DNA of 9,923 nt from Nitrospina sp. (GTDB lineage: Bacteria; Nitrospinota; Nitrospinia; Nitrospinales; VA-1): assembly GCA_003545625.1 (NCBI GenBank), contig DODH01000238.1, positions 749 through 10,671 of the forward strand. The letters are read 5' to 3'. Of the stretch, positions 256 to 9,923 are shown piece after piece. Under the pieces are notes generated by a model. It made no database searches, was not told where the DNA came from, and was given only the letters and a program-made list of their open reading frames with translations. The position numbers and the translations under genes are program-made. The stretch's first letter is position 1; every line of letters starts with the position of its first letter.

Positions 256-1011
256 TTGCTCAATACAGCGTTACAGGAAAAAATAGACCCCAATCGTCTG
301 CCCCGGCATGTCGCCATTATTATGGATGGCAATGGACGCTGGGCGCAAAATCATTCTCTCCCTCGGGTTGAGGGCCATTGGGCAGGGGTTAAGGTAGTGG
401 ACCGCATTGTCACTCTGAGCCGAAAACTCAAACTGGAAGCCCTAACCCTTTATTCGTTTTCAGATGAGAACTGGAACCGACCTTCTGCAGAAATCAACAC
501 GCTCATGAAAATTCTGAGCTTTTATTTGAAAAAGGAACTGAAGCGAATGAAAGAAGAGAATATACGCTTCAATACCATTGGGCATATTGAGGACTTGCCC
601 GAGGCAATTCGAAAACTGACCCATGATTCCATGGAAGATACCCGCGGCAACACTGGCATGGTTCTTACCCTGGCTCTGAGTTACGGAGGCAGGCAGGAAA
701 TCATAGATGCGGTAAAAAAAATTGCCGAACAGGTGCGTTCGGGGCAGCTCAGACCAGAAGAAATTGACTTGCCACTGTTTGGATCGTTCCTTTCCACCTA
801 CCCGCTTCCCGATCCGGACCTGATTATCCGTACCAGCGGAGAAAGAAGGATCAGCAATTTTCTTTTGTACCAGAGCGCTTATACTGAATTATTTTACAGC
901 AATGTGTTGTGGCCGGACTTTTCGGATGAGGATTTCCTGAACGCCATCATCGACTTCCAGGGCAGAGAGCGGCGCTTTGGAATGACGCAAGAGCAAATTG
1001 TAAAAGCCTGA
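256..1011 (+). CDS. uppS: Undecaprenyl diphosphate synthase (cis-prenyltransferase)
   Basis: A 251-residue cis-prenyltransferase that condenses farnesyl diphosphate with isopentenyl diphosphates to make the C55 lipid carrier for peptidoglycan and other envelope polymers. It is a cytoplasmic enzyme working at the membrane surface. The family motifs appear in order: MDGNGRWA (residues 23-30, with the catalytic Asp24), SFSDENWNRP (67-76), LSYGGRQEI (141-149), and RTSGERRISNFLLYQ (192-206), followed by AYTE and WPDF. Length is normal. One small difference is GHWAG at 40-44, where a basic residue commonly follows the His. The start is TTG at 256. It is preferred because CAGGAG at 242-247 sits 8 bases upstream and the protein begins about 20 residues before the first motif, as is typical. 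It consumes IPP made by the pathway containing dxr and ispF downstream. Confidence 0.96.
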   Translation: MLNTALQEKIDPNRLPRHVAIIMDGNGRWAQNHSLPRVEGHWAGVKVVDRIVTLSRKLKLEALTLYSFSDENWNRPSAEINTLMKILSFYLKKELKRMKEENIRFNTIGHIEDLPEAIRKLTHDSMEDTRGNTGMVLTLALSYGGRQEIIDAVKKIAEQVRSGQLRPEEIDLPLFGSFLSTYPLPDPDLIIRTSGERRISNFLLYQSAYTELFYSNVLWPDFSDEDFLNAIIDFQGRERRFGMTQEQIVKA

Positions 1012-1097: not shown

Positions 1098-1892
1098 TTG
1101 AAACGCGTTAGCAGTGGAGCCATTGCCATTCCGCTTGTATTGGGAGTTGTGTTGTATGGTTCTCCCCTTTTGTTCTTTTTTCTTGTTGCGGTGATTGTTT
1201 TGATTGCAAGTCACGAATACTTTTCCATGATTTCAAAAATGGGTGTGGAGGGTTTTCCCATCGAGGGGGGGCTATTGAGTTTCCTGCTCCTATGGGGTTT
1301 TTACCTGGGGACAAAATTTCTACTTATTTTTGCAGTCCTGCTGCCTTTAGTTTTCTTTACCACCTGGTTCTTCAGGGAAATAAATGTGAAAGTGGCTTTG
1401 GACCCTATTGCTTATACGCTGATGGGAATCTTTTACATCGCGGGATTGGGCGGGTACTTTCTGTTGATACATAGTCTGGAAGGGGGAAGCCAAATGATCG
1501 TGTTCCTCCTGCTACTGATTTGGGCCGGTGACGCGGCGGCTTATTATGGAGGCCGGAACCTGGGAAAACATAAGCTGCTGCCTGTGATCAGCCCCAATAA
1601 AACGGTGGAAGGGGCTATCGCCAATGTACTGGGAACTCTTCTAGCTGCAGGTGTCTCCAAAGTATGGTTTTTTGGGGAAATTTCGCTAATGCATTGTTTG
1701 ATTGTGGCCTTTATATGCGGTATCATCGGACAGTTTGGAGATTTTTTGGAATCTCTGATAAAAAGAAATTGTCGGGTGAAAGATTCCGGCTCATTGATTC
1801 CAGGTCACGGTGGTGTTCTGGATCGTATTGACAGCCTGTTGTTTGCTGGCCCGGCTTTCTATTGTTATTACCAATTGTTCCTGGGGACATAA
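1098..1892 (+). CDS. cdsA: Phosphatidate cytidylyltransferase (CDP-diacylglycerol synthase)
   Basis: An integral membrane enzyme of 264 residues that makes CDP-diacylglycerol from phosphatidate and CTP, the branch point to all major bacterial phospholipids. Most of the chain is made of hydrophobic segments (for example about 10-40, 57-92, 105-125, 132-148, 175-192, 198-215 and 248-262), consistent with a multi-pass inner-membrane protein. The diagnostic C-terminal signature is complete: SLIKR (219-223), KDSGSLIPGHGGVLDRID (228-245), including the Lys-Asp pair, HGG and the DRID acidic residues. WAGDAAAYYGGRNLGK (142-157) and SPNKTVEGA (165-173) are also typical. The start is TTG at 1098 with CAGGAG at 1085-1090, seven bases away, the same start style as uppS. 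The 86-base gap from uppS contains no obvious gene or terminator. It is slightly shorter than the E. coli protein, within family range. Confidence 0.96.
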   Translation: MKRVSSGAIAIPLVLGVVLYGSPLLFFFLVAVIVLIASHEYFSMISKMGVEGFPIEGGLLSFLLLWGFYLGTKFLLIFAVLLPLVFFTTWFFREINVKVALDPIAYTLMGIFYIAGLGGYFLLIHSLEGGSQMIVFLLLLIWAGDAAAYYGGRNLGKHKLLPVISPNKTVEGAIANVLGTLLAAGVSKVWFFGEISLMHCLIVAFICGIIGQFGDFLESLIKRNCRVKDSGSLIPGHGGVLDRIDSLLFAGPAFYCYYQLFLGT

Positions 1893-1950: not shown

Positions 1951-3108
1951 ATGAAAAAAATATCCCTTTTGGGCTCAACGGGTTCTATCGGTGTCAACAC
2001 TCTGGATGTTATAGAGCGTTATCCGGAAAGTTTTCAGGTTTGCGCCCTGTCTGCCGGAAGCAATGTAGACTTGTTTGCCCGCCAGATTCGAAAATTCAAA
2101 CCCGCGCTGGCGGCCCTGTTTGACTCGACGAAAATAGATGCGTTGAAAGAGCTTGTTGGCGATTTGGATGTGGAAATCGTTTCTGGTCAGGAAGGCACGG
2201 TTTCTGCCGCTTCTTTTTCTGAAGCCGACCTGGTTGTTTCCGGAGTGGTTGGAAGCGCCGGATTGCTCCCTGCCCTTTCGGCCCTCAAAGCTGGTAAAAA
2301 CCTTGCACTCGCCAATAAGGAAACGCTTGTCATAGCAGGGGAACTGGTTCTTAAAGAAGCGGAACGTACTCATACCCGCATCATCCCTATTGACAGCGAA
2401 CACAGCGCAATTTTCCAGGTATTAAACGGGGAAAAACCTGAGCGTATCAAGAAAATTATCCTGACTGCGTCCGGCGGACCTTTCAGAACTTTTACCCTCA
2501 AGCAGATGGAGAACGTGACGGTAAAAGAAGCACTCAATCACCCCAACTGGAGCATGGGAGCTAAAATCACCATCGACTCTTCCACCATGATGAACAAGGG
2601 CCTTGAGTATATAGAGGCTAAATGGTTGTTCGGGGTGGATACGAAGGTCGAGATCATCGTTCACGCGCAGAGTATCATTCATTCGATGATCGAGTTTGTC
2701 GACACTTCCATCATCGCGCAGTTGGGGATTCCGGATATGCGGGTTCCCATTGCTTACGCGCTGACTTATCCGGACCGGTTTGAAAGTGAACTGCCTTCTT
2801 TAGACCTGGCCTCTATGGGAAATCTGACTTTTGAGGCCCCGGACTTTGAAAGATTTCCCTGCCTGAAATTGGCCATGGATGCTATGGAAATGGGCCAGAC
2901 TATGCCGGCGGTACTCAATGCCGCTAATGAAATTGCGGTGCAGGCGTTCCTCGATGAACTGATCCCCTATAAAGATATCGCAGAGATCATTCGCATGGTT
3001 ATGCAAAATCACAGCCCGGTTTCCCTGCATGAATTGCAAAATGTTCTGGATGCCGACCACTGGGCCCGTGAAGAAGCCACTAAACTCATTACCGTCACCC
3101 ACCACTAG
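1951..3108 (+). CDS. dxr: 1-deoxy-D-xylulose 5-phosphate reductoisomerase
   Basis: A 385-residue enzyme of the MEP pathway. It rearranges and reduces 1-deoxy-D-xylulose 5-phosphate to 2-C-methyl-D-erythritol 4-phosphate using NADPH and a divalent metal, and it is the target of fosmidomycin in other species. The N-terminal dinucleotide motif GSTGSIG is at 8-14. LANKETLV (120-127) is typical. The metal ligands lie in PIDSEHSAIFQ (Asp148, Glu150) and MNKGLEYIEA (Glu219). The substrate-binding stretches SGGPFR (174-179) and HPNWSMGAKITIDSS (197-211) and the HAQSIIHSMIEF segment (238-249) are all intact. The ATG at 1951 places the nucleotide-binding motif at the usual distance. The ribosome binding site is weak (AGG near 1940). 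It is separated from cdsA by 58 bases containing an inverted repeat. The gene commonly found next, rseP, is not here. Confidence 0.97.
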   Translation: MKKISLLGSTGSIGVNTLDVIERYPESFQVCALSAGSNVDLFARQIRKFKPALAALFDSTKIDALKELVGDLDVEIVSGQEGTVSAASFSEADLVVSGVVGSAGLLPALSALKAGKNLALANKETLVIAGELVLKEAERTHTRIIPIDSEHSAIFQVLNGEKPERIKKIILTASGGPFRTFTLKQMENVTVKEALNHPNWSMGAKITIDSSTMMNKGLEYIEAKWLFGVDTKVEIIVHAQSIIHSMIEFVDTSIIAQLGIPDMRVPIAYALTYPDRFESELPSLDLASMGNLTFEAPDFERFPCLKLAMDAMEMGQTMPAVLNAANEIAVQAFLDELIPYKDIAEIIRMVMQNHSPVSLHELQNVLDADHWAREEATKLITVTHH

Positions 3109-3253: not shown

Positions 3254-3745
3254 ATGAATTTACCTGATATTCGTATTGGCAATGGTTACGATGTGCACCG
3301 TCTGGTTGAGGGCAGAAAACTCATCCTGGGTGGAGTCGATGTTCCGCATTCGATGGGACTGGACGGGCACTCTGATGCCGATGTTCTGGTGCATGCTTTA
3401 TGCGATGCCCTGCTTGGCGCATTGGGCGCTGGAGATATCGGTAAGTATTTCCCGGACACCGATCCGAAGTGGAAGGGCGTCTCCAGCCTGCACCTGCTCA
3501 AAGAAGTCGTGCGCATGTGCAAAGGTTTTAAACTTGCTAATGCCGACTCGGTGATCGTTGCACAACAACCCAAGCTGGCCCCCTATATTTCGCAAATGAA
3601 AAAGAATATTGCTTTGGCGATGGATGTCGAACCAGACCGGATTAATATCAAGGCCACCACAACAGAAAAGCTCGGTTTTGCCGGGCGGGAAGAAGGCATC
3701 TCTGCGTATGCGGTGGCCTTATTGGTAAAAAATGACAGACCCTGA
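3254..3745 (+). CDS. ispF: 2-C-methyl-D-erythritol 2,4-cyclodiphosphate synthase
   Basis: A 163-residue MEP-pathway enzyme, trimeric in the family. It cyclises CDP-methylerythritol 2-phosphate to 2-C-methyl-D-erythritol 2,4-cyclodiphosphate with release of CMP. The zinc ligands are visible as Asp13 and His15 in GNGYDVHRL and His47 in [16 protein letters not shown], the same spacing as D8/H10/H42 of E. coli. [12 protein letters not shown] (60-71) and [17 protein letters not shown] (133-149) are the other standard blocks. Length is normal. The ATG at 3254 gives a short natural N-terminus, but I see no convincing Shine-Dalgarno sequence before it. ispF is usually near ispD. Here ispD is absent and the last 14 bases overlap the start of a ketosynthase gene, which suggests translational coupling of a housekeeping isoprenoid gene to the acyl cluster. 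Confidence 0.96.
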
Positions 3746-4985
3746 TCAACGCATCGTAATCACAGGGATAGGCTTGACTTCCCCCAATGGCAACAACCTG
3801 CAGGAGTTTCGTCAAAACCTGTTAAACGGGGTTTCGGGAGTGCAACACTTCGAGACCCGGTATATGGGAAAGGTCCTCGCGGGGGTCTGTGATTTTGATG
3901 AACTGAAATACCAGAAAAAAAAGGAACGCCGCCGTGGCACCCGGGCCGGGTCCGTTGCCATCTACTGCTCGCGCGAAGCTTTTGCCAATGCCGAAATTGA
4001 CTTGGAAGCGATTGACCGCTCCAGGGTAGGCGTCTATCTGGGGGTGACCGAGCATGGCAATGTCGAGACCGAGAACGAGGTCTACAACATCAGCCAGTAT
4101 GATTATGATGTTAAGTTCTGGTCGCACCATCATAATCCTCGTACGGTTTCCAACAACCCTGCGGGAGAAGTGACCTTGAACATGAAAATCACCGGGCCGC
4201 ATTACACCATCGGTGCGGCCTGCGCGGCAGGAAATCTGGGAGTTATCCAAGGTCTGCAGATGTTGCGGCTGGGTGAGGTCGATCTCGCTTTGGCGGGAGG
4301 GGTGTCCGAGAGTATTCATACCTTCGGTATATTTGCCAGCTTTAAAAGCGAAGGCGCCCTGGCCACGCATGAAGACCCCGCTAAAGCCAGCCGGCCCTTT
4401 GATAAAAACCGTAACGGAATTGTTTGCTCAGAAGGAGGGTGCGTCTATACCCTGGAACGGCTTACTGACGCTAAAAAGCGCGGGGCGAAAATTTACGGAG
4501 AGATCGTGGGGTATTCCATGAACTCTGATGCGATTGATTTTATTCTGCCCGACCCGGGCAGGCAGGCCCAGTGCATACGTCTGGCGCTGGAGAGGGCCGG
4601 ACTCGAGCCGGGCGACATCGATATCCTCAACGCGCACGCAACGGCAACGCAAATGGGAGACATCCAGGAAGCCAAGGCCCTGCGCGAAGTGTTCGGCGAT
4701 AACTGCAAAGTGCGGATCAATAATACAAAAAGTTTCATCGGTCATACCATGGGTGCGGCAGGCACGCTGGAACTTTCCGGCAACCTGCCAGCATTCGATG
4801 ACCTCATAGTCCACCCCACTATCAACCTGGACGATCTCGATCCGGAATGCGCCTTGAATAACCTCGTGGCTAACAAACCGGAAAAACTTCCCTCCGTAGA
4901 TTACATCATGAACAATTCCTTCGGCATGTTCGGCATTAACTCTGTCCTGATAGTCCGCAGTCCCTCTGCTGGGAACTTGCAATAG
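3732..4985 (+). CDS. FabF-type beta-ketoacyl-ACP synthase (specialised paralogue)
   Basis: A 417-residue condensing enzyme of the thiolase-fold KAS I/II family, expected to extend an acyl chain with a malonyl-ACP unit in the cytoplasm. The catalytic Cys-His-His set is present: Cys164 in GAACAAGN, His302 in [11 protein letters not shown], and Lys333/His338 in [12 protein letters not shown]. The spacing and length match FabF. It departs from primary FabF at the two substrate-gating loops. The C-terminal GFGGTN is GMFGIN (398-403), and the loop after NSDA (264-267) reads IDFILPDPG instead of a YHMTSPP-like sequence. An unusual His-rich segment, WSHHHNP, is at 130-136. The ATG at 3732 overlaps ispF by 14 bases. 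No strong Shine-Dalgarno sequence is seen, so coupling to ispF translation is likely. The following gene is an ACP, its probable partner. The active site suggests a working enzyme with unusual substrate preference (inference). Confidence 0.93.
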
Positions 4986-5035
4986 CTTTTTACTGCGCCC
5001 AACTGGTCTTTAAGCTTTATGGACCATGGCAATTT

Positions 5036-5150
5036 GCCAGCGGAGGCTCTCCGCCCACTCCTGTGGGGGAAATCAGCAAGCACTTCTCAAGCCGACGGGG
5101 CCTCCGGATCGCCAGAGAAAGTTTTTGCCCGCTGGCCCCACGCCTAGTGG
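5036..5150 (+). other. Hairpin-rich segment in the gap between the ketosynthase and ACP genes
   Basis: The 233-base gap 4986-5218 contains no convincing gene but several complementary arms. GCCAGCGG (5036-5043) pairs with CCGCTGGC (5129-5136). CGGAGGC (5041-5047) can instead pair with GCCTCCG (5100-5106). GCGGAG/CTCCGC can form a local hairpin near 5040-5053. CCCAC/GTGGG (5054-5058 with 5063-5067) encloses TCCT. CCAC/GTGG (5138-5141 with 5147-5150) encloses GCCTA. The alternatives are mutually exclusive in part, as in a switching leader, but chance pairing in GC-rich sequence is also possible. I recognise no known RNA family. The segment ends just before a promoter for the ACP gene, so if it acts as RNA it would belong to the ketosynthase transcript's tail. 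Confidence 0.3.
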
Positions 5151-5160
5151 AAAATTAGGG

Positions 5161-5189
5161 TTGAAATCTGCCCTATCTTCTACTAAAAT
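5161..5189 (+). promoter_or_regulatory. Sigma-70-type promoter for the ACP gene
   Basis: TTGAAA (5161-5166) and TAAAAT (5184-5189) are each one base from the -35 and -10 consensus and are separated by exactly 17 bases. Transcription would begin near 5196, giving a leader of about 23 bases that contains the ACP Shine-Dalgarno sequence GGAG (5209-5212). This would let the ACP gene and those after it be expressed apart from the dxr-ispF-ketosynthase stretch. Read from sequence only. Confidence 0.6.
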
Positions 5190-5218
5190 CAGGGTTAAAG
5201 TGGATTTCGGAGACAAGT

Positions 5219-5482
5219 ATGACGATTGAAGATATACGACAGGTTATTCTTAATATCCTTGCCGATATTGCCCCGGATGAGGATATCAGTTCCATTGACG
5301 ACAACACAAAACTGAGGGACCAGATTGATCTGGATTCCATGGATTTTCTCGATATCGTCATGGAGCTTCGCAAGCGGTTTAACATCGAAGTGCCGGAAAA
5401 GGATTACGAGCATCTGGCAACGCTGGCCGGTTGTGTTTCTTATCTCACCCCATTATTAAAAGACCGACAGTTGGCCAGTTAG
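5219..5482 (+). CDS. Acyl carrier protein
   Basis: An 87-residue stand-alone acyl carrier protein. The DSMD motif places the phosphopantetheine attachment site at Ser40, in the context QIDLDSMDFLDIVMEL, with normal four-helix-bundle size and a typical acidic N-terminal half (PDEDISSIDDNT). It would carry the growing chain for the neighbouring ketosynthase, ketoreductase and dehydratase. The ATG at 5219 has GGAG (5209-5212) six bases upstream and a promoter just before. Unusually, after the conserved acidic positions Asp42 and Asp45 the recognition helix reads ELRKRFN (49-55), with Arg51-Lys52-Arg53 where E. coli AcpP has three glutamates. This suggests it is a pathway-specific carrier rather than the general fatty-acid ACP (inference). 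The gene symbol is withheld because acpP is normally a different gene, next to fabG and fabF in primary synthesis. Confidence 0.93.
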   Translation: MTIEDIRQVILNILADIAPDEDISSIDDNTKLRDQIDLDSMDFLDIVMELRKRFNIEVPEKDYEHLATLAGCVSYLTPLLKDRQLAS

Positions 5483-5536
5483 GTTTTCATACCCCCTCCC
5501 TTTTTTGACCCCAAAACAGATTCAGTTAAGTCGATA

Positions 5537-5632
5537 TACCTTTTGCTCGCAAGGTAGAGTTATTGCTTACTGGGTCCAGCGAGTTATATCTTCTTCATTA
5601 AATTTCATGCCCCGCATGGGGTATCACGCTGG
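5537..5632. repeat. Nested inverted repeats upstream of the first FAD oxidoreductase
   Basis: Three inverted pairs lie in the 173-base gap after the ACP gene: TACCTT/AAGGTA (5537-5542 with 5551-5556, loop TTGCTCGC), CCAGCG/CGCTGG (5576-5581 with 5627-5632) and, nested inside the latter, the perfect CATGC-CCC-GCATG (5606-5618), which can alternatively pair as CCCC-GCAT-GGGG (5610-5621). The last lies about 35-50 bases upstream of the inferred transcription start at 5656, where an operator or activator site would sit. None is followed by a T-run of terminator type. No gene is seen in the gap. The function is unproven, and short repeats can arise by chance. Confidence 0.35.
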
Positions 5633-5640
5633 CGCAGTGG

Positions 5641-5649
5641 TGGTATAAT
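5641..5649 (+). promoter_or_regulatory. Extended -10 promoter, possibly giving a leaderless mRNA
   Basis: TGGTATAAT (5641-5649) is a perfect extended -10 element (TGn followed by TATAAT). No good -35 is present at the usual distance, which extended -10 promoters tolerate. A start seven bases after the final T would fall on the A of the ATG at 5656, so the mRNA would have no leader. No clear Shine-Dalgarno sequence precedes that ATG, which agrees. If real, it excludes the alternative TTG at 5650 as the start for this transcript. Confidence 0.5.
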
Positions 5650-5655
5650 TTGGCT

Positions 5656-7038
5656 ATGCGTTACGACACTATTATTATCGGCGCGGGTTTATCGGGTTTG
5701 GCCGCGGGCATTCGGTTGGCCATGTTCGATAAAAAGGTCTGCATTGTTGAAAAACATAGCGTGATTGGCGGTTTGAATTCCTTTTATGTAAGGAAAAACC
5801 GCGTATTTGATGTCGGACTCCACGCCATGACCAATTTCACTCCTAAAGGAGTCCGGTCATCGCCGCTCGGCAAGCTACTGAAACAATTGCGTTTCAGCCA
5901 TGACGATTTTCGCCTGTGCCAGCAGGATATGTCGGAAATACATTTTCCTGAGAATTCCCTGCGTTTTACCAACGATTTTGAGTTTATGCGGCAGGAGGTG
6001 GCCGAACAGTTTCCCGATCAGATTGACGGATTCAACAAGTTGGTGGAAAAGATCCTTTCTTTCGATGAGTTGAACCTTGACGATGCTGACCGTCTTTTGT
6101 CTCGGCCGGTTTTGGAGTCTTATATCAGCGATCCGGTGTTGATCGACATGCTGTTTTGCCCCTTGATGTATTATGGCAATGCGCGTGAGGGGGACATGGA
6201 TTTTTATCAATTTGTCATCATGTTCAAGAGCATTTTTGTAGAAGGATTTTCCAAGCCCCAAGGTGGAATGCCTTACATCCTCAATCTCCTGGCTGATAAG
6301 TTCAAGCATCTTGGCGGTGAATTGAAGATGGGAAACGGGGTTAAAACCATCAATGCAAAGCAGGGAACGGTCGATTCGGTGACGCTTGCAAATGAGGAAG
6401 AATTAGCAACTGCAGCGGTACTTTCTTCCATGGGCTATGTGGAAACGCTTAACTGTTGCCAGCCTAAGCTTGCCGAGGCAGGTGTATGCGAGACGGGCCA
6501 GGTTTCGTTTATGGAATCCCTTTTTGTGGTGGACCGGGAGCCACGTGACCTGGGTTATGATAAGAGCATTGTCTTTTTTTCCATCCATCCACGCTTCGAT
6601 TATAAAGTACCGGGCGATTTGATCGATATTTCCAGCGGTGTGTTGTGTTGCAGCAATAATTTTCAATACCCACAACCGCTTGAGGAAGGGCTGATTCGCC
6701 TGACCAATCTTGCCCATTTCGGAAAATGGGACAGCCTGCCGAGAAAGGACTATATCGCCGCCAAGAAGGAATGCCGGACCCAGGCTTTGGAGGCTTTATT
6801 TACATTTTTTCCCGATTTTCGCGATAATGTGGTATTTTTAGACTCGTTTACGCCTAAGACCATTAAAAAATATACAGGCCACATTAATGGGGCTGTTTAT
6901 GGGTCTCCGCAGAAAATTAAAAATGGAAAAACCCCTGTTAAAAACCTGTATATTTGCGGGACAGATCAGGGGTTTTTAGGTATTATTGGGGCCACATTAA
7001 GCGGAATATCCATGGCCAACCTGCATATTTTACAATGA
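5656..7038 (+). CDS. CrtI/phytoene-desaturase-like FAD oxidoreductase 1
   Basis: A 460-residue flavoprotein of the amine oxidase/phytoene dehydrogenase superfamily. It starts MRYDTIIIGAGLSGL, with the FAD-binding GAGLSG at 9-14, the ribose-binding Glu32 in VEKH, and IGGLNS at 37-42. A second FAD-contact region ends the protein, ICGTDQGFLGIIGATLSG (about 433-450). Members of this family remove, add or isomerise C=C bonds in carotenoids, retinoids and other polyenes, usually at a membrane. No transmembrane helix or signal peptide is obvious. The substrate here is unknown. The flanking ACP, ketosynthase, FabG and FabZ point to an acyl chain or polyene made on the ACP, and no phytoene synthase is present. 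The ATG at 5656 is chosen over TTG at 5650 because MRYDxIIIGAG is the normal family N-terminus and the -10 element lies directly upstream. Confidence 0.9.
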   Translation: MRYDTIIIGAGLSGLAAGIRLAMFDKKVCIVEKHSVIGGLNSFYVRKNRVFDVGLHAMTNFTPKGVRSSPLGKLLKQLRFSHDDFRLCQQDMSEIHFPENSLRFTNDFEFMRQEVAEQFPDQIDGFNKLVEKILSFDELNLDDADRLLSRPVLESYISDPVLIDMLFCPLMYYGNAREGDMDFYQFVIMFKSIFVEGFSKPQGGMPYILNLLADKFKHLGGELKMGNGVKTINAKQGTVDSVTLANEEELATAAVLSSMGYVETLNCCQPKLAEAGVCETGQVSFMESLFVVDREPRDLGYDKSIVFFSIHPRFDYKVPGDLIDISSGVLCCSNNFQYPQPLEEGLIRLTNLAHFGKWDSLPRKDYIAAKKECRTQALEALFTFFPDFRDNVVFLDSFTPKTIKKYTGHINGAVYGSPQKIKNGKTPVKNLYICGTDQGFLGIIGATLSGISMANLHILQ

Positions 7039-7072
7039 CAGGCCCATCAAAAAATTCATCGTTTGAGAATCA

Positions 7073-8521
7073 ATGAGTAAACCATCGAAAGACTGGTTAA
7101 AGGGTGTTTTGTCTGCCTACGATACGGTTGTGATTGGCAGCGGTCTGGCGGGAATGACGTCTGCCAATCTTCTGGCTAAAATGGGGCACAAGGTTTTGCT
7201 GGCAGAGCATCATTACAATATGGGGGGCCTGGCCACCTGGTTCAAACGCAAGGGCGGGCATATCATGGATATCTCCCTGCACGGGTTCCCCTGCGGGATG
7301 ATCAAAACCTTGCGAAAATACTGGAGCCAGGACATTTCCAAACGGGTCATCCAGCTTAAAAATGTTCGTTTCGACAATCCACAGTTTTCCCTCAATACCA
7401 CTTTCGACAAAATAGACTTCACACATATCTTACGCGAGCGTTTCGGCATCCTTAAAGAAGTGATCGATGAGTTTTTTATGACCGCCCGAAGCATGAATTT
7501 TTATGACGAAGTGGTCATGACTACCCGCGACCTTTTTGAGAAATTTTTTCCGGGCCGCACCGATGTCTGGCGGTTTCTCATGGAACCGATCACCTATGCC
7601 AATGGTTCCACCTTGGATGATCCGGCACTGACTTACGGTATTGTTTTTTCCAACTTCATGGACAAGGGAGTTTTTACCTATCAGGGTGGTACCGATCACC
7701 TGATTAAGGAAATGAAGAAGGAGCTTTTGCGAAACGGTGTGGACATTCGCACTCACTGTTTGGTCGAAAAAATTTATGTGGAAGATAAAACGGTGCAGGG
7801 GGTTCGCATCAACGGGCAGGATATTGTGTGCAAGTCCGTCCTTTCCAATTCGAATTTATTGACTACCATCGAACAACTGACAGGCGAGGAACATTTTTCT
7901 CCCGAATTTATCAAAGAGGTCAAAAAAGTTCGGCTCAATAATTCCAGTTGCCAGGTTTATATGGGAATCAAAAAAGGGGAAACCGTGCCGCATGTAGGCG
8001 ACCTGCTGTTCTCGTCCGTGGCGGACGAATACTGCACGGATAAAATATTGAGCAAAGACGTTACCAGCCGCACCTTTTCGTTTTATTACCCGGAGATCCG
8101 CCCGGGAACCAATCGTTATTCCATCGTTTCTTCGACCAACGCCCGGTATCAGGACTGGGCTAACCTGAGCGAATCTCAATATAAGAAAGACAAGCATGAC
8201 TTGGAGCAAAGCACTCTCGATGCGCTGGAAAAATATGTTCCTGGCATTCGCAAAAAAGTGGATCATGTGGAAGCGTCAACACCAAAAACTTTCAAGCGCT
8301 ATACCCTGCACCCTTCGGGTACTTCGTTTGGAACCAAGTTTGAGGGACTTAAAATAAGCCGAGACCTTCCTAATCAGATTAATGGGTTGTTCCATGCTGG
8401 GTCGGTGGGAATTATTATGTCGGGCTGGCTGGGAGCGGCGAACTATGGAGTCATTGTCGCCAACGAAACGGATAAATTCCTCCGGCAGTTGAGCCCGAGC
8501 CTGGTGACCGCATCAGCCTGA
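7073..8521 (+). CDS. CrtI/RetSat-like FAD oxidoreductase 2
   Basis: A 482-residue flavoprotein of the same superfamily as its upstream neighbour but clearly divergent from it. After a 16-residue extension ([16 protein letters not shown]), the FAD fold begins [14 protein letters not shown] with GSGLAG at 22-27, Glu45 in LAEHH and MGGLAT at 50-55. YQGGTDHLI in mid-protein is a typical substrate/FAD-domain element. The C-terminal FAD segment is [19 protein letters not shown], sharing a G-x-x-GII pattern with the first oxidoreductase. Family members include phytoene desaturases, carotenoid isomerases and retinol saturases, so desaturation, saturation or isomerisation are all open. It follows the first FAD gene by 34 bases with no terminator and with only a weak ribosome site (GAG near 7067). 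Two dissimilar copies side by side suggest sequential steps or a heteromeric complex (inference). Confidence 0.9.
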
Positions 8522-8562
8522 AGTCAAATGGCCTCTTTTCGCTTTCCTGAAACTCAATAACT

Positions 8563-9306
8563 ATGAAATTCGATTTTACCGGGCAAACGGCTCTGGTCAC
8601 AGGTGGTACGCGTGGCATAGGCCGGGCCATCTCAGAGGCGTTCCTCAAAGCCGGAGCAAAAGTCATCGCTACTTATCTGGGTAATGATGGGGAAGCGGAG
8701 AACTTTAAACACGCCAATGCCGACCACGCAGACTTTCTCGACATTCATAAGTTCGATGTTTCCGATTATGTAGCGGTTGAAAAGTTTTATAAAGAAATCG
8801 AAACGAAATACGAAAACTTCCAGATCCTTGTTGTCAGTTCAGGCATTCGTTCCGATTCCATTGTTGGCATGATGAAGGCAGAGGACTGGAACCGGGTCAT
8901 CAACACCAACCTGACAGGAACTTTCAATTTGTGCAAGCTGGCAGTACAGTCCATGATGCGCCAGAGATATGGAAGGATCATCACTTTAACCTCTCCCATT
9001 GGCAAGTTCGGGTTTGCGGGCCAAGCCAATTACGCCGCGTCAAAAGCGGGTCAGGTGGCATTCACACGATCCCTCTCCAAGGAAGTAGCGAGCCGTAAGA
9101 TAACCGTTAATTGTGTTTCGCCAGGTTTCATCGATACCGATTTCATTGGCGATCTGCCGGAAGAACAGAAAAAATTCTATAAAGACCAGATTCCCCTGAA
9201 ACGCTTTGGAACCCCGGAGGATGTAACCTGCCCGGTGCTGTTTCTTGCGTCAAAAGAATCTTCTTACATCACAGGTTCGGTGTTAGAGGTAACCGGGGGA
9301 CTATAG
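8563..9306 (+). CDS. fabG: FabG-type 3-ketoacyl-ACP reductase (SDR family)
   Basis: A 247-residue classical short-chain dehydrogenase/reductase, expected to reduce 3-ketoacyl-ACP to 3-hydroxyacyl-ACP with NADPH. The cofactor motif TGGTRGIG is at 13-20. The catalytic residues are present: Asn116 (NTNLTGTF), Ser144 (TLTSPIG), Tyr157 and Lys161 (NYAASKAG). VNCVSPGFIDTDF and the TGSVLEVTGG end are typical of FabG. The oddity is at the structural NNAG motif, which reads VSSG (91-94) in ILVVSSGIRSD. The sequence is otherwise intact, so this is a variant and not decay. It lies 41 bases after the second FAD gene, has no clear Shine-Dalgarno sequence, and is one base from fabZ, so the two are surely co-expressed. 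Because it sits in a specialised cluster, it may act on chains other than normal fatty acids. Confidence 0.93.
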   Translation: MKFDFTGQTALVTGGTRGIGRAISEAFLKAGAKVIATYLGNDGEAENFKHANADHADFLDIHKFDVSDYVAVEKFYKEIETKYENFQILVVSSGIRSDSIVGMMKAEDWNRVINTNLTGTFNLCKLAVQSMMRQRYGRIITLTSPIGKFGFAGQANYAASKAGQVAFTRSLSKEVASRKITVNCVSPGFIDTDFIGDLPEEQKKFYKDQIPLKRFGTPEDVTCPVLFLASKESSYITGSVLEVTGGL

Positions 9307-9307
9307 G

Positions 9308-9733
9308 ATGTCACAGGACTTTCTTCAATACATTCCCCATCGTCCGCCTTTTCTGTTTATCGACCGGGTGCTTGAAGAAAGCGACGATACTATCAAGGCG
9401 GAAAAAAAGATCGATCCGAAAGAACCGTTTTTTGAGGGGCATTTTCCTGGAAGACCGATCATGCCGGGAGTGTTGATCTTTGAATCCATTTTTCAGGCCG
9501 GCGCAATCATGATGGGGAAACGTATGGCCAACGAAGGCAAGATCCCGGTTCTCACCCGTGTCAATAACATTAAACTCAAGCATGCTGTTCATCCGGGAGA
9601 TACGATGCAGATTGAGGTGAAGCTCAAAGATTTGGTCAGTACCGCCGCATACATGACGGGCAAGGCCACCGTCAACGGTAAAACTGCAGTCACCCTGGAG
9701 TTCTCCGCCATGCTGGTTGAGGAGACAAAATAG
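9308..9733 (+). CDS. fabZ: FabZ-type 3-hydroxyacyl-ACP dehydratase
   Basis: A 141-residue hot-dog-fold dehydratase that converts 3-hydroxyacyl-ACP to trans-2-enoyl-ACP. The catalytic His45 lies in EGHFPGRPIMPGVLIFES and the catalytic Glu59 in the same stretch, at the standard 14-residue spacing. The N-terminal block IPHRPPFLFIDRV (9-21) is the usual substrate-tunnel region, with Pro-Pro where many FabZ have Tyr-Pro. Length is normal for FabZ, and the longer FabA-type isomerase pattern is not seen. The ATG at 9308 is one base after the fabG stop, with the G-run 9295-9300 as a likely ribosome site. It completes a condense-reduce-dehydrate set with the ketosynthase and FabG. No enoyl-ACP reductase follows in the window, so its trans-2-enoyl product may be kept, or handled by the FAD oxidoreductases. 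Confidence 0.95.
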   Translation: MSQDFLQYIPHRPPFLFIDRVLEESDDTIKAEKKIDPKEPFFEGHFPGRPIMPGVLIFESIFQAGAIMMGKRMANEGKIPVLTRVNNIKLKHAVHPGDTMQIEVKLKDLVSTAAYMTGKATVNGKTAVTLEFSAMLVEETK

Positions 9734-9830: not shown

Positions 9831-9850
9831 CAAATCAAATCTCACAAGAT

Positions 9851-9923
9851 CGTCATCGCTAGCCGCAAAGCGGCGTGGCGATCCAGAGTTTTTCTGGATT
9901 GCTTCACTTTGTTCGCAATGACG
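9851..9923. repeat. Palindromic dispersed-type repeat reaching the window edge
   Basis: The element starts CGTCATCGC (9851-9859) and ends GCAATGACG (9915-9923), imperfect terminal inverted repeats. Inside are two perfect hairpin arms: GCCGC-AAA-GCGGC (9862-9874) and ATCCAGA-GTTTT-TCTGGAT (9881-9899), the latter followed by TGCTTCACTTTGTTCGC. This composite resembles a well-known style of bacterial intergenic repeat with ends like CGTCATTGCGA and inner GGATTGCTTC. Only one copy is visible, so dispersal is from memory, not shown here. It may continue beyond the window. It could also act as a transcript-end hairpin for the cluster, though no T-run follows. Confidence 0.6.

Follow-up and report, generated by a model that had tools for sequence, protein, structure and literature searches.

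In Shewanella and other bacteria, the polyene hydrocarbon hentriacontanonaene (C31:9) is made by Pfa together with OleABCD, an arrangement in which KS, ACP, KR, DH and ER functions form a dedicated acyl synthase that feeds OleA. According to the available portion of PMC6463001, the ole genes of Pfa systems are adjacent or located elsewhere in the genome, and its authors conclude that OleA in Shewanella takes acyl chains from the ACP domains of Pfa. The same portion of the text assigns the acyl chains used by the OleA-D families of Xanthomonas and Stenotrophomonas to the core type II synthase (PMC6463001). Clusters proposed to make ladderanes or PUFA in Kuenenia stuttgartiensis and Desulfotalea psychrophila combine Fab-like genes and ACP with CrtI-like proteins, and also hold radical SAM genes (Rattray, 2009; Javidpour, 2016). 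D. psychrophila makes C31:8 and C31:9, carries three CrtI-like genes and is said to be without other known PUFA pathways, and the FabF paralogues of K. stuttgartiensis are without normal active sites, as given in the accessible part of PMC2649909. For kuste3336 and kuste3607, the excerpted text of PMC4790861 states that no lycopene was obtained.

The Nitrospina locus analyzed here resembles Pfa with OleABCD in that a dedicated acyl synthase probably feeds OleA, but its functions reside in discrete proteins rather than in a megasynthase, and two CrtI-like flavoproteins (F1 and F2) take part. To our knowledge, Pfa systems do not contain CrtI-like flavoproteins. While the OleA-D families are the same as in Xanthomonas and Stenotrophomonas, the acyl chains would come from a dedicated set instead of the core synthase. 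Like the clusters of K. stuttgartiensis and D. psychrophila, the locus joins Fab-like genes, ACP and CrtI-like proteins. However, no radical SAM domain was detected by Pfam in eight ORFs of the window or in 30 proteins encoded at the loci of relatives, and the KS active site is kept. F1 is similar to the carotenoid desaturases and isomerases CrtI, CrtD and CrtISO in its FAD fold and overall structure, whereas the gene context is one of acyl-ACP and hydrocarbon genes, not carotenoid genes. The preliminary description considered the pathway a candidate for an undescribed one, and in the literature searched the combination was indeed not met as such; nor did the search return a paper joining oleABCD with a Nitrospin- name.

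Other known cluster types were rejected. A type I Pfa PUFA synthase disagrees with the single-domain-type proteins of the window (Pfam) and with the PfaD-family model (TIGR02814), which gave no match above cut-off in 42 module genomes and weak matches in 15 of them, in a search that covered PfaD. In the control for this model, 3 of 14 named genomes matched, one of them above the cut-off. An aryl polyene or flexirubin cluster was discarded since the FlxB model reached 234.4 bits against a cut-off of 340.

Gene content and order of the locus

The window, i.e., the whole stretch of 9,923 nucleotides that was analyzed, holds the six genes behind four flanking ones:

256..1011, + strand: uppS, undecaprenyl diphosphate synthase, housekeeping flank and conserved neighbor (TIGR00055 above cut-off; synteny)
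1098..1892, + strand: cdsA-like ORF, flank (ORF and synteny; name presumed from position)
1951..3108, + strand: dxr-like ORF, flank (ORF and synteny; name presumed from position)
3254..3745, + strand: ispF, upstream flank (PF02542; TIGR00151 above cut-off)
3732..4985, + strand: KS, beta-ketoacyl-ACP synthase (PF00109/PF02801; Cys-His-His intact)
5219..5482, + strand: ACP, stand-alone acyl carrier protein (PF00550; DSM serine present)
5656..7038, + strand: F1, CrtI/amine-oxidase-fold FAD enzyme (ATG start; alternative TTG at 5650)
7073..8521, + strand: F2, second CrtI-like FAD enzyme (PF01593)
8563..9306, + strand: FabG-like 3-ketoacyl-ACP reductase (PF13561/PF00106; NF009466 above cut-off; TIGR01830 279 bits vs 297.75)
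9308..9733, + strand: FabZ-like 3-hydroxyacyl-ACP dehydratase (PF07977; NF000582 above cut-off)

That KS, ACP, the two CrtI-like genes, FabG and FabZ follow each other on the plus strand with no gene between them, as first described, was confirmed by ORFs and Pfam/NCBIfam models. The 3' end of ispF and the start of KS share 14 bases, and the gaps from KS to FabZ are 233, 173, 34, 41 and 1 bases. The tail of the window after FabZ contains a dispersed repeat, which is seen in four other Nitrospinota loci as well. Compared with consensus motifs, the catalytic motifs are intact in KS (Cys-His-His), ACP (DSM serine), FabG (YxxxK and TGGxxGIG) and FabZ (GHFPGxPxMPGV), as is GxGxxG in F1 and F2. The KS-ACP gap varies from 69 to 1808 bases across Nitrospinota loci and contains a promoter-like match at 5161-5189 in the window. 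Therefore, the six genes need not share one transcript.

The same gene order is found in relatives whose F1 and F2 are as little as about 70% identical, which excludes a chance arrangement. Of the Nitrospinota loci, 26 extend more than 2.5 kb beyond F1 on its upstream side. KS-ACP lies immediately before F1 in 17 of these, ACP without KS in 6 (the sequence upstream of ACP is only about 2.7 kb long in L020), and neither in 3. In all 20 Bdellovibrionota loci sampled by their KS, KS-ACP-F1 was contiguous, and 19 of the 20 F2 loci sampled from this phylum had F2-FabG-FabZ-FabI in this order, the remaining one being cut by a contig end. Comparison thereby shows two conserved blocks, KS-ACP-F1 and F2-FabG-FabZ-FabI. 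Scattering of the six genes in close relatives had been named as evidence against a joint pathway. Such scattering is seen in part: KS or KS-ACP is missing from the position immediately before F1 in 9 of the 26 Nitrospinota loci, and in Bdellovibrionota the blocks are usually separate, but they stay within the same genomes.

An enoyl reductase was reported as absent from the set, which does not hold in relatives. A FabI-like enoyl reductase comes directly after FabZ in 24 of 26 relatives' loci holding FabZ, with a largest gap of 171 bases, and the remaining two loci stop within 94 bases of FabZ. No FabI start was found in the 190 bases between FabZ and the window end; judging from the relatives, a FabI is likely to lie behind FabZ here as well.

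Separation from primary fatty-acid synthesis

The KS shows 60-92% identity to the other nine sequences of a ten-row alignment, 13 of the 14 clade members examined share an 11-residue KS motif, and the tree splits the clade from its paralogues with 100/100 support. By these comparisons, KS is a member of a distinct and highly conserved clade of beta-ketoacyl-ACP synthases. Furthermore, a second KS was found in eight of eight relatives' genomes and two FabZ copies in all 13 Nitrospinota genomes, while canonical fab loci of relatives hold further FabG (L040, L042 and L044) and further ACP (L040 and L044; the ACP of L042 was not called). Because relatives have these second copies and canonical fab loci, the six-gene set is, as seen from relatives, not the primary fatty-acid set. 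The concern that KS, ACP, FabG and FabZ might be sole copies is thus refuted in relatives, and the second copies and KS tree support the original view that an elongation set and two CrtI-like enzymes make up a dedicated ACP-based pathway. The FabI of the cluster is the sole FabI-like gene found in six of six Nitrospinota genomes in a search for FabI homologues (E <= 1e-15), and it may therefore have an additional role in the primary pathway. A second FabI was found in genomes G277 and G273. Only a 37% FabI was detected in G005, where KS, F2 and OleA are present and the contig ends 644 bases from F2.

In the close relative L001, the two flavoproteins share about 23-24% identity. F1 has a CrtI-type fold with carotenoid desaturases as the best match, and amine oxidases and a fatty-acid isomerase also match. 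Since the fold fits several families, it does not separate desaturation, isomerization and saturation by F1; the structure model of F2 was poor and unusable (pLDDT 44.5). All listed NCBIfam carotenoid models score far under their cut-offs (at best 80 bits against 549.7 for F1 and 95.4 against 586.9 for F2), and membership of both proteins in the curated CrtI-type carotenoid desaturases was rejected on these scores.

Association with OleABCD

A partner overlooked in the preliminary description is OleABCD, which brings a KAS III-like OleA and a release route. Co-occurrence was counted in related genomes, raw as to kinship, with the best few candidates scored per genome. Among 290 Bdellovibrionota genomes, KS was found in 83, F2 in 84, OleA in 90 and all three in 76, and KS occurred without either partner in none. 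KS and OleA were both present in 79 genomes (KS only 4, OleA only 11, neither 196), and KS and F2 in 80 (KS only 3, F2 only 4, neither 203). In seven Bdellovibrionota genomes, OleA occurs in the absence of both KS and F2, which means that it can do without the module. At the level of gene order, OleA immediately follows F1 in 18 of 20 Bdellovibrionota KS loci, and OleA to OleD form one run in 13 of the 20 (12 at first count; L118 was added after its OleA was placed by a separate search). All eleven genes, i.e., the module and oleABCD, are on a single strand in G061 and G277, and G291 has nine of them on one strand of a contig that begins inside F1.

In Nitrospinota, OleA is located away from the module and is present in 41 of 53 genomes with KS. 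Without genome completeness given, missing sequence may or may not be the cause of the mismatches, namely 12 of 53 KS genomes without detected OleA and 7 of 24 KS-less genomes with OleA. OleC was found in 7/7 and OleD in 10/10 Nitrospinota genomes tested, and OleB adjoins OleA in all four loci read. For relatives overall, the counts are 11/11 genomes for OleA (one being the query's own), 11/11 for OleC and 12/12 for OleD; OleB was not found at the Opitutales locus L125. Opitutales and Planctomycetota genomes with the module also have OleA (G006 and G008), and a 60% FabI homologue adjoins OleA in G006. A Nitrospinota OleA scores 246 bits against chain 3row (X. campestris OleA). Collectively, the comparison shows module-OleA co-occurrence across Bdellovibrionota and a less tight one in Nitrospinota, and strongly suggests that head-to-head hydrocarbon synthesis by OleABCD is the partner of the module.

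Proposed function and alternatives

The module is probably a dedicated dissociated (type II) acyl-ACP synthase that provides OleABCD with unusual, presumably polyunsaturated chains, where the polyunsaturated product and the roles of F1 and F2 are inferred from family chemistry. On the dedicated ACP, KS would extend the growing chain by condensation with malonyl-ACP. FabG, FabZ and FabI would carry out the reductive cycle, and F1 and F2 would place new double bonds in the ACP-bound chain or move existing ones, which is the role of the dehydratase/isomerase domains in the Pfa PUFA synthase. Two such acyl-ACPs would be condensed head to head by OleA, and reduction, lactonization and decarboxylation of the product by OleD, OleC and OleB would give a long-chain polyene hydrocarbon like C31:8 or C31:9. 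The transfer from Pfa ACP domains to OleA in Shewanella is a precedent for such a hand-over. More tentatively, the position of F1 between ACP and OleA suggests that it might perform the last modification before OleA, while F2 might act during chain building.

In its broadest form, the proposal is a second, independently assembled bacterial PUFA synthase of seven dissociated proteins (KS, ACP, FabG, FabZ, FabI and two CrtI-type flavoenzymes). It would make polyunsaturated acyl-ACP de novo without Pfa or an oxygen-dependent desaturase and pass it to OleA, which would use it for C31 polyene hydrocarbons. The range of this synthase would cover Nitrospinota and Bdellovibrionota; Verrucomicrobiota and Planctomycetota would share the KS-ACP-F1 part, and Syntrophales (Smithella) at least KS. 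To this wider version we attach about equal belief and doubt.

It is rather unlikely that the module instead makes unsaturated fatty acids for membrane phospholipids, as an alternative to FabA/FabB or oxygen-dependent desaturases, with OleA drawing on the pool and the Ole link being indirect. The elongation cycle completed by FabI in relatives, the sole FabI-like gene in 6/6 Nitrospinota genomes and the 12/53 Nitrospinota KS genomes without detected OleA would all agree with such a function. However, it does not account for the operon-like fusion with oleABCD, or for the tight co-occurrence in Bdellovibrionota, where OleA is missing in only 4 of 83 KS genomes and both are missing in 196 of 290. 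A conjugated polyene pathway, pigment- or ladderane-like, in which conjugated bonds are installed by KS, KR and DH and the product is completed by the CrtI-like enzymes, is very unlikely. This was the initial proposal, and its argument falls with the FabI after FabZ in relatives, as it rested on a missing enoyl reductase. In addition, the partners are Ole genes, and no radical SAM or methyltransferase domain was found by Pfam in 20 proteins from relatives' loci L002, L003, L024, L030, L034 and L036. A further fatty-acid synthase of the ordinary kind that makes no special product, with F1 and F2 acting on other substrates such as isoprenoids from the neighboring MEP genes, would fit uppS, cdsA, dxr and ispF upstream and the overlap of ispF with KS, but is hardly tenable given that this neighborhood was not found in seven Bdellovibrionota, Opitutales, Planctomycetota and Pseudomonadales-labelled loci, and that in Bdellovibrionota F1 is flanked by ACP and OleA and F2 is followed by FabG.

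If the flavoenzymes of the proposed acyl-ACP synthase desaturate or isomerize acyl-ACP, they would represent a new oxygenase-free route to polyunsaturated chains and a new function of the CrtI family. Under the proposal, Nitrospina, which is a major nitrite oxidizer of the sea, would be expected to contain polyene hydrocarbons. The module could also explain C31:8 and C31:9 in D. psychrophila without Pfa, provided that this organism carries it. The eleven-gene hypothesis for polyene hydrocarbons is testable in culturable bacteria such as Halobacteriovorax. The KS of Halobacteriovorax marinus (P0327 and P0328, the former placed by tree) falls in the module KS family, and the OleA of this species is reported as active in the available part of PMC7064751.

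Gene content of the window and its closest relatives

The window is Nitrospina-type DNA. Among the 39 loci within named genome contigs that encode relatives of F1, 32 are titled Nitrospina, Nitrospinaceae, Nitrospinae or Nitrospinota (L001-L029, L031, L037 and L038), with best-segment identities of 67-93%, and the other seven (two Opitutales, three Halobacteriovoraceae/Bacteriovoracaceae, one Planctomycetota and one Pseudomonadales) show identities of 47-50%. The + strand carries, in order, uppS, cdsA, dxr, ispF, KS, ACP, F1, F2, FabG and FabZ, where cdsA and dxr are putative names based on position. The six genes from KS to FabZ thus lie together on one strand as the preliminary description had stated, and the catalytic motifs of the module genes are intact. 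The features discussed here are:

3732..4985, + strand, KS (beta-ketoacyl-ACP synthase)
4986-5218, KS-ACP gap of 233 bases (69 to 1808 bases in relatives)
5161-5189, promoter-like match inside the KS-ACP gap
5656..7038, + strand, F1 (CrtI-like FAD enzyme)
7073..8521, + strand, F2 (CrtI-like FAD enzyme)
9834-9923, window tail with a dispersed repeat, matching L041, L029, L017 and L004 (81-97% over 29-66 bases)
9877-9903, terminator-like stem

Given the KS-ACP gap and the promoter-like match within it, the module may consist of two transcription units.

Separation from primary fatty-acid synthesis and the enoyl reductase

Searching with the window KS detected at least one additional full-length KS in each of eight genomes. 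The cluster KS scored 566-874 bits in these searches and the best paralogue 204-241 bits. A tree of 21 KS proteins places all 14 cluster KSs together and splits them with 100/100 support from seven paralogues (from G001, G003, G005, G006 and G008), although the program flagged a long paralogue branch (L047) that meets this group. The paralogue loci L040, L042 and L044 have a canonical look, as all three hold KS, FabG and a FabH-like gene, and an ACP was called in L040 and L044. Two FabZ matches were found in 13/13 Nitrospinota genomes tested. These second copies in relatives agree with the earlier proposal of a dedicated set rather than the only copies in the organism, and gene content argues that the module is distinct from the primary fatty-acid set. 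A third KS, with 29-31% identity to the window KS, occurs in the Nitrospinota genomes G001 and G003 (L041 and L043) and belongs neither to the canonical fab locus nor to the module.

The preliminary description also held that the set lacks an enoyl reductase, which the relatives contradict. In these, the next gene 3' of FabZ is a FabI-like SDR (PF13561). Within the 32 Nitrospinota loci examined, FabI follows FabZ at 0 to 171 bases in 24 of the 26 that hold FabZ, and the other two stop 94 and 2 bases past FabZ. Because no FabI start was found in the 190 bases between FabZ and the window end, a distance wider than the FabZ-FabI gap of all 24 relatives, FabI in the window's own organism is predicted from these loci. 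Part of the window tail matches the dispersed repeat present in four other Nitrospinota loci. The cluster FabI is the sole FabI-like match in 6/6 Nitrospinota genomes, in a search confined to FabI homologues. A second FabI-like match is present in G277 and G273, and the best FabI found in G005 was a single 37% match.

Association with the OleABCD genes

In the Halobacteriovoraceae locus L030, the four genes immediately 3' of KS-ACP-F1 encode an ACP_syn_III, an alpha/beta hydrolase, an AMP-binding and a 3-beta-HSD domain (Pfam), the domains expected of OleA, OleB, OleC and OleD, respectively. A search of 290 Bdellovibrionota genomes of unstated completeness detected the KS clade in 83 of them, OleA in 90 and F2 in 84. 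Scoring here, and in the Nitrospinota below, was limited to a few top candidates in each genome, which makes absences soft. All three occur together in 76 genomes, and KS is never found with neither of the others; KS and OleA without F2 were seen in three, KS and F2 without OleA in four, OleA and F2 without KS in four, and OleA alone in seven (Fisher p = 2e-53 for KS and OleA and 2e-62 for KS and F2, ignoring kinship). Twenty of the 83 KS loci were picked by hand, chiefly for long contigs. KS-ACP-F1 is contiguous in all of them, OleA comes next after F1 in 18 (in L118 placed by a separate search), and the run from OleA to OleD is unbroken in 13. The order F2-FabG-FabZ-FabI is kept in 19 of 20 loci chosen out of the 84 F2 genomes, the remaining one being cut by a contig end. 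All eleven genes lie on one strand in G061 and in G277, and nine are visible in G291, where the contig start cuts the set.

Directly 5' of KS, a TrmB-like winged-helix protein is encoded in L030 (7858-8502, 214 aa) and L111 (10079-10717, 212 aa; just under the Pfam cut-off), and several other Bdellovibrionota loci have ORFs of similar size at this place. It is possibly a dedicated regulator of the module.

Among 77 Nitrospinota genomes, KS was found in 53 and OleA in 48 (both in 41, KS only in 12, OleA only in 7, neither in 17; p ~1e-4, uncorrected). OleC was found in 7/7 and OleD in 10/10 genomes tested. A Nitrospinota OleA aligns over its full length with 3row (246 bits), and the aligned cysteine, histidine and asparagine are presumably the catalytic residues. 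OleB adjoins OleA in all four loci read. The ole genes are located away from the module, and OleC away from OleA, in those genomes that were read. Contiguity of the six genes holds in part: the order is kept in many relatives, but KS, or KS and ACP, is not immediately 5' of F1 in 9/26 Nitrospinota loci (including L020, where just ~2.7 kb precedes ACP), and the best FabZ of G308, G309 and G338 is on a different contig from KS or 55 kb off. Co-occurrence despite separation is stronger evidence of shared function than linkage alone. With KS and OleA both present in 120 genomes (79 Bdellovibrionota and 41 Nitrospinota), the module is now tied to Ole, and this distribution points to OleABCD as its partner pathway. 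The reading that the module would supply OleABCD rests on the genomes of relatives and not on a FabI in the window.

In Nitrospinota, the OleA-OleB pair is preceded by genes for an ABC exporter-type protein and a Usp/PCP_red protein (Pfam, L122 and L123) and, in L123, is flanked on its far side by an AdoHcyase gene; ORF sizes around the pair in L124 and L127 resemble these. The exporter-type protein might move the product.

Published systems and other phyla

C31:8 and C31:9 hydrocarbons were reported in D. psychrophila, which has three CrtI-like genes and no known PUFA pathway, and an anaerobic PUFA pathway common to this species and anammox bacteria was proposed (Rattray 2009, PMC2649909). 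The module may be the core of that pathway. Two anammox CrtI-like proteins are reported not to make lycopene (Javidpour 2016, PMC4790861). C31:9 in Geobacter bemidjiensis has been connected with pfa-like genes (Shulse and Allen 2011; 2016 review, PMC4882568). OleA of H. marinus is reported to be active, and section 11 of that article does not mention the module gene set (mBio 2020, PMC7064751).

KS-ACP-F1 is also present in Opitutales (L033 and L034) and one Planctomycetota record (L036). Since L036 and L039, the latter labelled Pseudomonadales, have identical module coordinates and identities, one of these bins probably carries a wrong label. F2, FabG and FabZ were not seen beside KS-ACP-F1 in L033, L034 or L036/L039. 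OleA was found in G006 (Opitutales), where a FabI homologue of 60% identity adjoins it, and in G008, the genome of L036. By protein name, KS occurs in Halobacteriovorax marinus, Bacteriovorax sp. and Smithella/Syntrophaceae, the last of which are strict anaerobes. As the Smithella and Syntrophaceae KSs (P0254 and P0278) nest within the Bdellovibrionota group of the KS tree, their position suggests horizontal transfer. Five F1 homologues (P0135, P0142, P0155, P0201 and P0207), named from Chloroflexi, Thermodesulfobacteriota, Planctomycetota, Dehalococcoidia and Wallbacteria bins, share 51-53% identity with the F1 of L036.
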